Source of the DNA: Nitrospirota bacterium
GTDB lineage: Bacteria; Nitrospirota; Thermodesulfovibrionia; UBA6902
DNA length: 39,866 nt
Assembly: GCA_016222905.1 (NCBI GenBank)
Contig: JACRPZ010000070.1
Coordinates: 1 to 39,866, forward strand
Direction of reading: 5' to 3'
The notes under the pieces were generated by a model. It ran no database searches. It was not told the DNA's origin and saw nothing but the letters and a program-made list of their open reading frames with translations. The position numbers and the translations under genes were made by a program. This document shows positions 5,750-38,801 of this stretch, piece after piece. Each line of letters starts with the position of its first letter. The first letter of the stretch is position 1.

Positions 5750-6181
5750 ATGAAAAACAAGATAATTCTTTTAGCGGAAGACAGTCCCGATGACGTCAAG
5801 CTGACGCTGCGCGCGCTTAAAAAAAGCAATATCCTGAACGAGGTGATCGTTGCGGAGGACGGGGTAGAGGCGTTGGACTATCTTTTCGGCACGGGCAAGT
5901 ATGCAGGCCGGGACACAAGTGTCCTGCCTCAGGTGGTGCTGCTCGACCTGAAGATGCCGAAGATGGATGGGCTTGATGTCCTTCACCGAATACGGGCGGA
6001 TGAAAGAACTAAACTCATGCCGGTCGTCATTCTCACGACATCAAGCGAGGATAAAGACAAGGTTGACAGCTATAAACTGGGCGCAAACAGCTATATCCGC
6101 AAGCCGGTGAACTTTAACCAGTTTGTAGATGCCGTGCAGCAGTTGGGACTATACTGGCTGGTGCTTAATGAAGCGCCGTAA
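5750..6181 (+). CDS. Single-domain response regulator, Rcp1-like receiver
   Basis: A 143-residue receiver with no output domain. Acidic residues are in LLAEDSPDD, the phospho-acceptor is Asp66 (LLDLKMPKMDG), the conserved Thr is in VVILTTSSEDKD, and Lys lies in the IRKPV motif. The extended loop before the acceptor (DYLFGTGKYAGRD) and C-terminal extension are typical of Rcp1/phytochrome-associated receivers, usually cognate to PAS/GAF kinases with HisKA domains. The start has AAGGAGG 5-12 bases upstream. It follows the MEDS kinase by 27 bp and overlaps the small gene after it by 14 bases, so it is almost certainly co-transcribed. It probably receives phosphate from one or both upstream kinases; output by protein-protein interaction is inferred. 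Confidence 0.93.
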   Translation: MKNKIILLAEDSPDDVKLTLRALKKSNILNEVIVAEDGVEALDYLFGTGKYAGRDTSVLPQVVLLDLKMPKMDGLDVLHRIRADERTKLMPVVILTTSSEDKDKVDSYKLGANSYIRKPVNFNQFVDAVQQLGLYWLVLNEAP

Positions 6182-6515
6182 AATAGAAATGCGAAATGCG
6201 GAACTCGGAATGCGAAATGTTGAATCGTTGCCAAAGACAATGACAGCCGCAATACTTGGGAAACAATTATTACGGGCCGGAACCTCGGTCGGAGCTAATT
6301 ATAGAGCTGCTTGCAGGGCTCGTTCGACAGCGGAGTTTATTGCGAAAATGGGGATAGTCGAAGAAGAAGCGGATGAGTCCATATATTGGATGGAGTTGCT
6401 TCTTGAGGCCGGCATACCTACCCGAGACAAGATTGGACCGCTAAAGTGTGAGGCCGAGGAGTTGCTTGCAATTACTGTTTCATCTATCAAGACCGCTCGG
6501 AAGGGGGTCAGATGA
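6168..6515 (+). CDS. Four-helix-bundle protein (23S rRNA intervening-sequence protein family)
   Basis: About 115 residues. The core ESLPKTMTAAILGKQLLRAG followed by TSVGANYRAACRARS and the ...EEADESIYWMELL... helix are hallmarks of the S23/IVP four-helix-bundle family (also related to Avd of diversity-generating retroelements). The usual N-terminal helix that precedes LPK is replaced by MRNAELGMRNVE, read from an ATGCGAAATGCGGAA repeat, so the protein is shortened or re-started. The start at 6168 overlaps the receiver stop; ATGs at 6189 and 6210 are alternatives, none with a good ribosome site. The stop overlaps the next start (ATGA). The gene is bounded by imperfect inverted repeats (6195-6225 and 6525-6555), suggesting it entered the signalling operon as a cassette. 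Function outside rRNA is unknown. Confidence 0.75.
   Translation: MKRRKIEMRNAELGMRNVESLPKTMTAAILGKQLLRAGTSVGANYRAACRARSTAEFIAKMGIVEEEADESIYWMELLLEAGIPTRDKIGPLKCEAEELLAITVSSIKTARKGVR
6195..6225 (+). repeat. Left inverted repeat of the four-helix-bundle cassette
   Basis: A 31-base AATGCGGAA...GGAATG...AATG segment that matches the reverse complement of 6525-6555 at about 25 of 31 positions. Both are built from GGAATG-like units. It encodes the odd N-terminus of the four-helix-bundle protein. Confidence 0.6.
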
Positions 6516-27017: not shown

Positions 27018-27210
27018 GTTTCATCTATTTTAAACAAGTTATTATGTAGTTAGAAAACATTAGCACAAAATTGTGAGCCCGTCAATAACTATTGAAGGCT
27101 ATTTAATAGCTATCATTATACTTTTCAACTGACTAATACGAAATTTGTAATGGTAGTCATGTTGTAATCTTCCAGCACATCTCTGCCCATCTCCAGTGAA
27201 CTTGTCGATT

Positions 27211-27241
27211 TTTCTGAATTCTGATATTCTAAATTCAGAAA
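27211..27241. promoter_or_regulatory. Perfect inverted repeat upstream of the AbrB/PIN pair (candidate operator)
   Basis: TTTCTGAATT and AATTCAGAAA, a 10-bp perfect inverted repeat separated by 11 bases, ending 23 bp before the antitoxin start. Toxin-antitoxin operons are normally repressed by their own antitoxin at such palindromes, so this is a likely operator. Confidence 0.5.
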
Positions 27242-27264
27242 AGAAGACAATAAGGAGGTTTAAA

Positions 27265-27552
27265 ATGGATACCATGAAAACAGCCATTGCAGAAATAAAA
27301 ACCCGAGGCCAGTTGACCATCCCCAAGAAAATAAGAGAATCAAGCCATCTTGAAGAAGGACAGGTGGTCTCTATCATACCTGTGGGTGACTCTGTTATCA
27401 TCACCCCGAAAAGACTTGAGCTTGATGAGGCGAGAAGGCAGATCAGAAAGATAATGAAAGACTCGGGACTTTCAGAAAAAGAACTGCTCAAGGGGATTGG
27501 AGAAGAGAGAGAGCTGCTTTACAAAGAAACCTATGGCAAAAAAAAGCGTTAA
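27265..27552 (+). CDS. AbrB/MazE-like antitoxin (SpoVT-AbrB domain)
   Basis: 95 residues. N-terminal swapped-hairpin domain (about 5-50: AIAEIKTRGQLTIPKKIRESSHLEEGQVVSI, then DSVIITPKR), followed by a helical toxin-neutralising tail. The ATG at 27265 has TAAGGAGG just upstream; an in-frame upstream start lies in the operator region and is unlikely. Overlaps the PIN gene by 20 bases. Confidence 0.85.
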   Translation: MDTMKTAIAEIKTRGQLTIPKKIRESSHLEEGQVVSIIPVGDSVIITPKRLELDEARRQIRKIMKDSGLSEKELLKGIGEERELLYKETYGKKKR

Positions 27553-27997
27553 GATCTTCCTTGATTCAAACATCATCATATCGGGTTTGTTCTCTGATAG
27601 AGGGGCACCCCGCGTCATTCTCGACCTTTTATCGCTCGGGCTTCCTCAGCTTGCCGGGGTAACAGGGGAATATAATATCATTGAAATTGAACGGAACATA
27701 AGAAAAAAGATGCCTGATGCGCTTCCGGTTTATCTTAAATATCTTCCCTTGATGAACCTTGAAATCATCCCGCTTCCATCGTCAAGAGATATTGCAAAAC
27801 TAAGCGGGACCACTTCCCAAAAGGACATCCCTGTTCTTGCTTCAGCCATCAATGGCAATGTTGATTTCCTCGTAACAGGGGACAAAAAAGACTTTATCCA
27901 TTTAACAGGAAAATATTCATTTAAAATCCTGAACCCCTCGGAATTTCTTGATATCATTCTTCCTGAGGTGCTTAAGGCTTTGGAATCTGACATATGA
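27533..27997 (+). CDS. PIN-domain toxin (VapC-like ribonuclease)
   Basis: 154 residues from ATG 27533. PIN signatures: FLDSNIIISGLFSDRGAPRVIL at the start with the first acidic residue, a middle acidic residue region, TTSQKDIPVLASAINGNVDFLVTGDKKDF near the end with the second acidic cluster. PIN toxins are Mg-dependent RNases. It belongs to the 'putative toxin-antitoxin system' PIN subgroup rather than classical VapC. Coupled to the AbrB-like antitoxin by overlap. Confidence 0.82.
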   Translation: MAKKSVKIFLDSNIIISGLFSDRGAPRVILDLLSLGLPQLAGVTGEYNIIEIERNIRKKMPDALPVYLKYLPLMNLEIIPLPSSRDIAKLSGTTSQKDIPVLASAINGNVDFLVTGDKKDFIHLTGKYSFKILNPSEFLDIILPEVLKALESDI

Positions 27998-34110: not shown

Positions 34111-34149
34111 AGTTATACATAACTGTGTAAAAAGCAAAGAAACTTCAGA

Positions 34150-34171
34150 GGAGATTTACATTAAAATCTCC
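34150..34171 (+). terminator. Hairpin after dgt
   Basis: GGAGATTT-N6-AAATCTCC, a perfect 8-bp stem 39 bp after the dgt stop. No T run follows. The rest of the gap 34111-34351 contains another short hairpin (34303-34331) with a T10 loop, discussed as a possible recombination site. Confidence 0.4.
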
Positions 34172-34351
34172 CGGAAAACCGAAAAAGAAGGCGGTCAAGA
34201 AAATGAGGGATGTGTCGCCATATTTTAATTCTCAGCGAAAGCTATGATTTAGTTCTTTCTGATTCCTGTTATGAATTTTGAGGGTTGTAACGTAAAAGAA
34301 CAGCCGCTCCGTTTTTTTTTTGGAGTCGGGCAGACGTGCTTGTTATGCACT

Positions 34352-35019
34352 TTAAGTTAAATATTGTTTAAACTCGTTTAATAAAGTCTCATTCCGCCTG
34401 ATAATACAACGTTTAAAAGAAGTGAAATTAGAAGCTCTATTCAAATGACCTTTTATCTTCATTAAAATATATTCTTTGTCCTTGGCATCATTTGTTTCTT
34501 GAAAATAATCAATAAGATTCTCTTGAAATGATTTTATTTCTTCTAATAATCTGTTGCGCAAATTAGATGATTCTATCATTTTCAACTTGGTTGTTCCGTT
34601 GTAAACTTTAAGTAAAAGTTCTTGTGTATATTTTGATTTATCACTGTCATCTAATAATTCTACTTCCACCTTTTCAAATGGAAATGGCATAAAAATATAT
34701 TTCAATTTTTCTTCAACTTTATCATCTGCATCTGTGCAGTTAAGGATATTGTCATAATTTCCTAATTTAATGTTATTGCAATGTGAGCATGCCCAGAATA
34801 AATTATTCCAGCTAAATTTAAGGGTATTGTCATCCTTGTGCGGGACAAAATGTTCAACATTTATGCTTTTAGGTTCTTTAGATTCACATATGTAACATTT
34901 GTTTTTAAAATCATTCTTTAGACGTGTTAAAACATCACCACATTTATAATCGCCATTTGCTTTCTTGCTCTCGATTTCTAAGCAAGCAGGAGCTGCTGAC
35001 TTTTTTTAAAAAATAACAT
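34352..35019 (-). pseudogene. HNH endonuclease (PtuB-like, TIGR02646-type) split by a frameshift
   Basis: Second gene of a Septu-like pair. ATG at 35019 lies five bases after the ATPase stop with AAGAGGT in the last ATPase codons as ribosome site. It reads MLFFKK, then a T6A7 run, and goes out of frame to a stop after 13 codons. In the -1 frame (equivalent to one extra A) it continues for a total of 222 residues with no stop: SAAPACLEIESKKANGDYK, CYIC, VEHFVPHKDD, SWNNLFWACSHCNN and a helical C-terminus. VEHF, the Asn in NNLF and CSHCNN form the HNH metal site; the two CxxC pairs are zinc ligands. The HNH part has no ATG, GTG or TTG of its own until after the motif. Either an inactivated gene, an assembly indel, or a slippage-controlled nuclease. 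Confidence 0.75.
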
Positions 35020-35024
35020 ATTAT

Positions 35025-36284
35025 TTATGACCTCTTTGCTGTAAGGGATTTCAGAGTTATTTCTTGTAATTTAACCAAAAGCTCATTGCTTAAATATTTA
35101 GGAATATGTAAAAAATATTTTTCTAACTCCTTCAACCTCTGTTTCTCTTCTGCATCTAATTGGTCTGCTAATGATAATTTTTCATATTCAACAATTTTGG
35201 CTTTTATTAAAGAAGAATATTTATCTGAGTAAAAATAACTCTCTAATAGCGCATCATAAGAGTATCCAGATAGATCAGATGTGACAATATTACTTTCCAG
35301 ATCACAAACTACAGAGTTTGCCAATGAAGATAAAACAAACGGAGAATGTGTTGTCACTATAAATTGTATTCTTGGGAAAAAATTAGTTAGAAAAGGTAAT
35401 ATTTTTTTCTGCAACTCCACGTGCAAGTGTGTTTCAATTTCATCTATTAATACCAATCCTTCCATGTCATAATTTCTTGCTTGGTGCGCTTCCATTCTCA
35501 GAAGTAATTCTGTGACAATACTTATTATTGCCGAATAACCATCTGATAATTTATCAAACTCATAAGGTTCTTTATCTTCCTCTATAATTTGAAAATTATA
35601 ATTTTTCCTATCGAATTTTAATTCTAAAGTAGGTGATTCAAAAATCTCTCTCAGACGTTCTTGAAAACTTTTAAACCATTTATCTATACTTGTAACCTCA
35701 TCGACTAAATCATCATCTCGTGCAAATGATCTGTTTGCCTTCAAATTAACTAGATACTGAATAAAATGTTTATTTGCTTTCTCTTTAAAATCATATCGGT
35801 GTTGCAATCTTATCTTCGAGATACCAGATGGGATATCTATTTGCGCGTGTCTCTTAGCCTCAAAAAATGCGATTATAAAAGTCCCATCCCTTGCCTTTTC
35901 CCATAAAAGATGCTCATTTGCAAAAGTTATGCATGCATTTCCGAAGCTGCTGAGATAGTTATTGATATTATTTATTTGGCTTTTAACGTCTGCAATTTGT
36001 CTTGAATTCTTACCATAATTAATGTCGTCCGAACTAGTTGAGAATGTATTCAGAAGTTGCTTTTTGGAATCAAGTGCAGAAAGCTGCGCTCGACGATTTT
36101 CAATTTTTCCGTTATATATATTAGTCAAATATTTATTCAACTCTAATAGTAAGCTAGTTTTACCAGAGCCATTTCTCCCTGTGATTATCAAATGTTTCCT
36201 TTCCTTATCAGAAAGGGGGAGAGATAGATCTTTGACAACCATCGCCTTTGTTATATTTATACTTGATGCAAATATTTCTACCAT
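35025..36284 (-). CDS. Septu-like (PtuA-type) AAA/SMC ATPase
   Basis: 419-residue ATPase of the AAA_15/21, OLD/RecF-like group: Walker A GRNGSGKTSLLLELN near residue 36-44, a central coiled-coil/insert region, signature-like KLSDGYSAIISIVTELLLR, Walker B GLVLIDEIETHLHVELQ and the switch histidine in FIVTTHSPFVLSS. It is followed by an HNH nuclease gene, the gene order of Septu (PtuA-PtuB) defence, in which the ATPase senses phage and the nuclease cuts nucleic acid. GAAGG lies about 10 bases before the ATG. AT-rich codons set it apart from flanking genes, suggesting transfer. It might alternatively be a retron/other ATPase-HNH pair; no reverse transcriptase is present. Confidence 0.85.
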   Translation of the reverse strand: MVEIFASSINITKAMVVKDLSLPLSDKERKHLIITGRNGSGKTSLLLELNKYLTNIYNGKIENRRAQLSALDSKKQLLNTFSTSSDDINYGKNSRQIADVKSQINNINNYLSSFGNACITFANEHLLWEKARDGTFIIAFFEAKRHAQIDIPSGISKIRLQHRYDFKEKANKHFIQYLVNLKANRSFARDDDLVDEVTSIDKWFKSFQERLREIFESPTLELKFDRKNYNFQIIEEDKEPYEFDKLSDGYSAIISIVTELLLRMEAHQARNYDMEGLVLIDEIETHLHVELQKKILPFLTNFFPRIQFIVTTHSPFVLSSLANSVVCDLESNIVTSDLSGYSYDALLESYFYSDKYSSLIKAKIVEYEKLSLADQLDAEEKQRLKELEKYFLHIPKYLSNELLVKLQEITLKSLTAKRS

Positions 36285-36654: not shown

Positions 36655-37767
36655 TCAACAATTTTTTGAACTGTTCTTAGGATGATCCAGAAGCACCTTA
36701 TGAATACTCGATATAACTAAATCGAATGAAATAGCAACCTCACCAATGTTACTTTCCATCGCTTCTCTATGATAAAGATGGTCCGCTTTTAACATGTTAT
36801 ACGCACAAATGCCTTTTAAGATGTGCATATTTCTAACGTGTTCATCTGCACGACGGCCACTTGCAATGAATGACATATAATACTCATGAAGTAATAGGAA
36901 TAAGTTGTTAATCGCATTATATGACTTTTTATATTCACTATCGCGAAGCAAGAGTGTATGGTCACGGCGAAATGGCAAACTATAAGCAGCAAAATATGCA
37001 CTGTTCAACTTTACTAATGCTTCATGAATACTCTTGTGTGGGATTTCATTACTTGCGTGTTCAATAGTTACAGTGTTGCCGAGTTTTGAAACTACACAGT
37101 AAAACCCATTTTTTAGTGGAACGAGTAGAGATTCATAATCCATGTGATACAAAATTATATGACTATTGAATTCTTGTTTAACATAGGTCATAAAATCGGT
37201 TGAGTCAATGTTGTGCTCCTTTAAAGTGCTATCAAGAATATCTGAAATAAGAAAACTCGTATTGCTCCCTTGTGATACATTTTGATCGTCCGGAGTTATC
37301 AGATTAGCAGCTTTTCTTTTCGGAATGCCACTTGACAATATCGTTTCAGCTACGCGCACAAAGACTGCATCCTGTTCGCCTATTTGTTGCATAACTAGCG
37401 GGGTTGAATTAACAGCTTGAAATTGACTTAACTCTTCGTAATTCATAAATAAGGACCAGCTCAAAAGAATAGGTAAAACAAGTGCGCCATCATTCTCGGC
37501 GGCTTTTAGTAAAAAAGGAAGCTCAACAGCAGCGATGAAATCTGATGCCAAAAAATCGGGACTTATCATTAGAATAGCTACTTTAGTACGTTGCAACATG
37601 CTCATAATTTCTTTTTTCCAGCGCGCCCCAGGTTGGATCCTTGTATCCTCCCAAACTTCAATCTGAAAGTCACGTTCGAGAGGTTTAAGATGTATCTTTA
37701 AGCGTTCTAACCAGACTTTATCCTTATGACTGTAACTGATAAAAATTGCTGATCTAATTATTGACAA
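36655..37767 (-). CDS. TIR-domain protein with unknown C-terminal domain
   Basis: 370 residues. The TIR domain (about 1-150) shows AIFISYSHKDKVWLERLKIHL, VWEDTRIQPGARWKKEI, VAILMISPDFLASDFIAAVELPFLL with the Glu that is catalytic in NADase-type TIRs, and VLPILLS. Bacterial TIRs of this group deplete NAD+ or make cyclic ADP-ribose signals in anti-phage defence. The C-terminal 200 residues (from about 170) match nothing I recognise and are probably the sensor or regulator. The start is TTG because an in-frame stop lies two codons upstream; the ribosome site is weak. It is on the same strand as the Septu-like genes 370 bp downstream, forming a defence island. Confidence 0.82.
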   Translation of the reverse strand: MSIIRSAIFISYSHKDKVWLERLKIHLKPLERDFQIEVWEDTRIQPGARWKKEIMSMLQRTKVAILMISPDFLASDFIAAVELPFLLKAAENDGALVLPILLSWSLFMNYEELSQFQAVNSTPLVMQQIGEQDAVFVRVAETILSSGIPKRKAANLITPDDQNVSQGSNTSFLISDILDSTLKEHNIDSTDFMTYVKQEFNSHIILYHMDYESLLVPLKNGFYCVVSKLGNTVTIEHASNEIPHKSIHEALVKLNSAYFAAYSLPFRRDHTLLLRDSEYKKSYNAINNLFLLLHEYYMSFIASGRRADEHVRNMHILKGICAYNMLKADHLYHREAMESNIGEVAISFDLVISSIHKVLLDHPKNSSKNC

Positions 37768-38313: not shown

Positions 38314-38502
38314 ATGAACATTTCAAAATCAAAATTAGAAACCCTTTTTAAAGAACTTCCTGAAAATATTGATATTGAGGAAGTTATGTATCGCCTTTAT
38401 CTTATTCAAAAAATAGAGGCAGGCGAAAGAGATATTCAGGAAGGTAGAACACTTTCACATAAAGATGCCATGGAGAGATTATCAAAGAAATGGCAGAACT
38501 GA
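38314..38502 (+). CDS. Antitoxin partner of ParE-type toxin
   Basis: 62 residues from ATG 38314, with AGGAGGTG just upstream. All-helical: SKSKLETLFKELPENIDIEEVMYRLYLIQKIEAGERDIQEGRTLSHKDAMERL. The EGRTLSHKDAMERL end is typical of small antitoxins preceding ParE/RelE toxins. Overlaps the toxin gene by 13 bases, implying translational coupling. Confidence 0.78.
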   Translation: MNISKSKLETLFKELPENIDIEEVMYRLYLIQKIEAGERDIQEGRTLSHKDAMERLSKKWQN

Positions 38503-38801
38503 TATGGAGTGAGAAATCTCTCTTGGATGTGGAAAATATTTATGACTATATTGCCCGCGACTCTCCGCTATATGCAAGATATCAAGTAGAAAGCATTTCC
38601 GCTTCTTTAGAGCGATTATGCGTGTTTCCTGAATCGGGACGTCATCTTCCTGAATTTCCACAACTTCCTCACAGAGAAGTAATTGTTGATAATTATCGGG
38701 TAATTTATCGGTATGATTCAAGTATTGATGAAGTAAAGATAGTAGCCGTTGTGCACGGAAGCCGCTTATTAAAAGAAACCATTTTCATATCCAGAGATTA
38801 G
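38490..38801 (+). CDS. ParE/RelE-superfamily toxin
   Basis: 103 residues: LIWSEKSLLDVENIYDYIARDSPLYARYQVESI, LCVFPESGRHLPEFPQLPHREVIVDNYRVIYRYD, VKIVAVVHGSRLL. This is the ParE pattern (gyrase-inhibiting family), though RelE-type RNase activity cannot be excluded from sequence alone. Directly coupled to the antitoxin upstream. Confidence 0.88.
   Translation: MAELIWSEKSLLDVENIYDYIARDSPLYARYQVESISASLERLCVFPESGRHLPEFPQLPHREVIVDNYRVIYRYDSSIDEVKIVAVVHGSRLLKETIFISRD

Follow-up and report, generated by a model that had tools for sequence, protein, structure and literature searches.

Gene content of the locus

The window analysed here, a stretch of 39,866 nucleotides of a Nitrospirota bacterium, carries a Septu-like pair of genes on its minus strand, consisting of an intact ATPase gene followed by an HNH nuclease gene that can only be read in two frames. 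The features discussed below are as follows.

35025 to 36284, minus strand: ptuA-like AAA ATPase gene, intact, 419 aa (PADLOC, Pfam, identity to homologues)
34352 to 35019, minus strand: ptuB-like HNH nuclease gene, frame-broken (PADLOC PtuB1, Pfam HNH, break-point scan)
35001 to 35013, minus strand: T6A7 run, coding F-F-K-K in frame 0 and fitting the family without a shift; taken as the slip site by the first-pass annotation
34994 to 34995, minus strand: most likely break site, the two bases left at codon 9, which is Pro in 44 of 46 relatives (alignment and break-point scan)
34978 to 34980, minus strand: TAG ending frame 0 of ptuB after 13 codons

The ATPase (36284-35025) matches Pfam AAA_21/AAA_15 and the PADLOC PtuA1 model PDLC00268 (E = 2.5e-117, 390.8 bits, residues 6-416), Walker A (GRNGSGKT) and Walker B (VLIDEIE) are readable in its translation, and it shares 50-55% identity with many homologues that adjoin PtuB genes. 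The ptuA stop and the ptuB start are separated by five bases (35024-35020) on the same strand, and AGAGG precedes the start ATG at 35019-35017. The normal layout of ATPase stop, ribosome site and HNH start described in the first-pass annotation was thus found as stated, and its call of a Septu-like ATPase-HNH pair was also right, since the PtuA1 and PtuB1 models both match. Among the relatives compared below, the two genes lie at most 40 bases apart in 44 of 46 cases. Neither a second PtuA of the same family nor a second PtuB is present in the genome.

Frame 0 of ptuB, starting at ATG 35019, reads MLFFKKSQQLLLA and then TAG, and its first eight codons match the family. From 34993 onwards the match continues in the -1 frame, which ends with the stop codon at 34354-34352. 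This -1 frame follows a TAA overlapping the T/A run and contains no stop over 217 codons (35005-34355); the chance of such an open frame in random sequence of the same composition is about 1.7e-9. It carries the HNH residues, matches Pfam HNH and is hit by the PADLOC PtuB1 model PDLC00321 (E = 3.6e-59), which bears out the earlier description of a nuclease out of frame with its HNH frame intact. Start Met aside, 47 of the 49 residues conserved in at least 90% of 43 relatives are retained; the two absent ones, an S and a P, fall exactly in frame 0 or at the break. C37, C40, E51, H52, C73, C76, N77 and others are retained, but reading them requires the -1 frame. The first ATG, GTG or TTG in this frame lies 101 codons in, beyond the HNH core, therefore no in-frame start rescues ptuB. 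At this locus, no single frame yields a complete PtuB, whereas a Septu system requires two translatable genes; as sequenced, the locus ranks as a broken Septu member that would not work.

GC content falls from 0.41-0.46 over 28-34 kb of the window to 0.31-0.37 over 34-39 kb, a drop that appears to resemble that of many acquired defence islands. Between a dGTPase gene and ptuB there is a low-GC stretch (34117-34351) with a run of ten T (34312-34321). Upstream, the pair is adjoined by a TIR-domain gene (36655-37767, minus strand, TTG start), which matches Pfam TIR_2 (E = 1.5e-13) and, over its first 143 residues, PADLOC ThsB1 (E = 4.1e-19); it is possibly a second defence gene. Elsewhere in the window, we also identified a ParE-type toxin gene (38490-38801, plus strand; Pfam E = 1.5e-16), an ordinary toxin-antitoxin pair in which a MazE/AbrB-type antitoxin gene overlaps a PIN-domain toxin gene (27196-27997, plus strand), and a gene for a 23S rRNA-intervening-sequence protein of the four-helix family (6129-6515, plus strand), which shares bases with the last part of a response-regulator gene and the first part of a histidine kinase gene.

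Position of the frame break

The break was located by comparison with 46 aligned PtuB relatives, one on a Persicobacter plasmid (54% identity) and 45 from a genome collection. A first search of 60 genomes had given two distant copies only, and protein searches of viral contigs and phage records gave no relatives. A 47th relative, from the window's own phylum and class, reads MVNVKKSQIAPDCL and has an intact ptuB after an intact ptuA; it was the one close intact pair in the 396 genomes of the phylum that were searched. The 46 relatives, with an inferred start codon of ATG in 45 and TTG in one (L039), share the ungapped N-terminal consensus M-x-x-x-x-K-S-Q-P-A-P-x-C-L at a fixed spacing from the start, in which K6 (45/46), S7 (43/46), Q8 (36/46), P9 (44/46), A10 (41/46), P11 (45/46), C13 (35/46) and L14 (45/46) recur. 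All 46 keep one reading frame from the start across this block, with no frame break at this site.

Against this consensus, frame 0 of the window gives MLFFKKSQ without interruption at the T6A7 run, and the -1 frame gives APACL, which places the break in codon 9, just beyond the A-run. According to the frames alone, the shift could lie anywhere between the -1-frame TAA at the A-run and the frame-0 TAG; the first-pass annotation, which required the shift to occur at A7, is therefore too strict, and the homologues put the shift at codon 9. In a break-point scan, 12 positions were scored against the consensus block of the relatives with an X at the join. Codon 9 scored best (41.3 bits), its neighbours reached 34.6 and 33.7 bits, and codons 5, 6 and 7, over the A-run, gave 22.8, 19.4 and 26.7 bits. 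The advantage of codon 9 over the best of these three is 14.6 bits, which corresponds very roughly to a 2^15-fold difference and serves as a guide only, as the relatives are not independent. With a break at codon 9, 8 + 1 + 213 codons give 222 residues, including one unknown residue at codon 9, and more relatives have this length than any other.

Origin of the missing base

The explanation we favour, with a probability of about 92%, is a Septu operon in which ptuB is one base short in codon 9, through a recent mutation or a sequence error, with the system inactive if the break is real. The base would be lost a few nucleotides 3' of the A7 run, translation of ptuB would end after 13 codons, and no HNH nuclease would be made, so that PtuA would be left alone and the Septu system would be inactive. 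An intact pair would be expected to act like other PtuAB, the ATPase and nuclease forming a complex to cut nucleic acid after infection, with phage DNA or tRNA as the target depending on the system.

Between the two sources of the break, we lean slightly towards a real loss-of-function mutation, at about 60:40. The other source, an assembly or sequencing error with ptuB intact in the organism, is somewhat the less probable. The 213 codons 3' of the break show no further damage; after 5% neutral divergence, the probability of finding no stop would be 0.12, and that of finding neither stop nor indel about 0.005, assuming 0.1 indels per substitution. The undamaged -1 frame is no less compatible with an error than with a mutation, and the draft assembly consists of 90 contigs. 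However, the break lies outside a long homopolymer, where errors are commonest. No other frame break was noticed in those genes of the window that match a family, a mild argument against a contig rich in errors. If the break is real, the undamaged -1 frame means that neutral divergence since it arose amounts to a few per cent at most under the assumed indel ratio. The earlier alternatives of a very recent break or an assembly error accordingly survive.

Three other disrupted operons were found among the relatives, at unrelated places, as expected of decay or error. The ptuA gene changes frame in two of them (L032, 1-460; L052, 2250-2500), both on short contigs of draft genomes. In the third (L053, 2486-2803), ptuB ends early before a transposase-like frame, which resembles the start of an IS630-type transposase. 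Frameshifted members of defence operons have been described by the authors of PADLOC, who also warned of sequence errors (PMC9252829).

A real break combined with weak slippage at A7, which would still give a trace of PtuB and so a muted nuclease beside full-dose PtuA, is very unlikely. Slightly less likely again is programmed -1 slippage of the ribosome (or polymerase) at the T6A7 run, by which limited PtuB would be made. A lysine tRNA can slip to some extent on a run the length of A7, and a product shifted there would have a normal PtuB length, but breaks at codons 5-7 score 14.6-21.9 bits below codon 9, and none of the nine codon steps from the -1-frame TAA to the 0-frame TAG offers an X XXY YYZ heptamer in register. 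The RNA downstream of the run folds no better than its shuffles (z from -0.11 to 0.25, folding without pseudoknots). T6A7 occurs three times in the genome, so the run alone means little. Moreover, the intact gene of Sphingobacterium mizutaii (L031) spells MLFFKK with a T8A6 run and continues in the normal frame, which indicates that FFKK-type runs are an ordinary spelling in an AT-rich gene.

Least likely of all is phase variation, in which the A-run would gain or lose one base and switch ptuB on or off: homopolymer runs drive such variation in some restriction systems, but the base is missing from codon 9 and not from the A-run, A7 is short for a contingency run, and the longest A-runs within the first nine codons of the relatives measure 3-6, all in frame. 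The first-pass annotation had proposed a slippage switch or phase variation at T6A7 and suggested looking for a conserved slippery run in homologues. That comparison went against a switch, as the homologues have normal starts with no need of slippage and show frame 0 to be correct through the A-run and KSQ, with the break in the next codon.

Comparison with known systems and meaning of the locus

The pair shares with Septu (PADLOC PtuA1/PtuB1) its gene order, close spacing, ATPase and HNH families, HNH residues and a homologous N-terminus, and differs from it in that ptuB is one base short. Homology to the PtuA-PtuB of retron Ec78 and retron I-A is distant; the window proteins score 105.8 bits with NCBIfam NF041760 and 21.3 bits with NF041761, below the respective cut-offs of 500 and 150 bits, and PtuA has 419 aa here against about 550 in the Ec78/I-A type. 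Solved retron PtuA chains are likewise only distantly homologous to the window PtuA, and no solved structure chain matches the HNH protein by sequence. No reverse transcriptase was matched among the window genes scanned with Pfam.

According to previous studies, PtuA or PtuB of retron-Eco7 alone gave no growth arrest in E. coli, while the pair depletes tRNA-Tyr, and the Septu of E. coli ATCC25922 was reported to target nicked DNA (PMC11555353). In another Septu, Walker and HNH substitutions abolish immunity, showing that both motifs are needed (PMC13096335). Because an intact PtuAB needs both partners and ptuB stops after 13 codons, Septu should be inactive here. Frameshifted operon members are known among defence-system pseudogenes, and the window locus is no different in kind.

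As far as the sequence tells, the locus is an ordinary one, a Septu pair with what is probably a one-base break in codon 9 of ptuB and not in the A-run. Its significance beyond the locus itself is small. It illustrates that homologues can locate a frame break, which may fall outside the run that looks most prone to slippage, and it contributes a Septu pair, probably broken, to the known cases in which defence genes have decayed or draft sequences contain errors.
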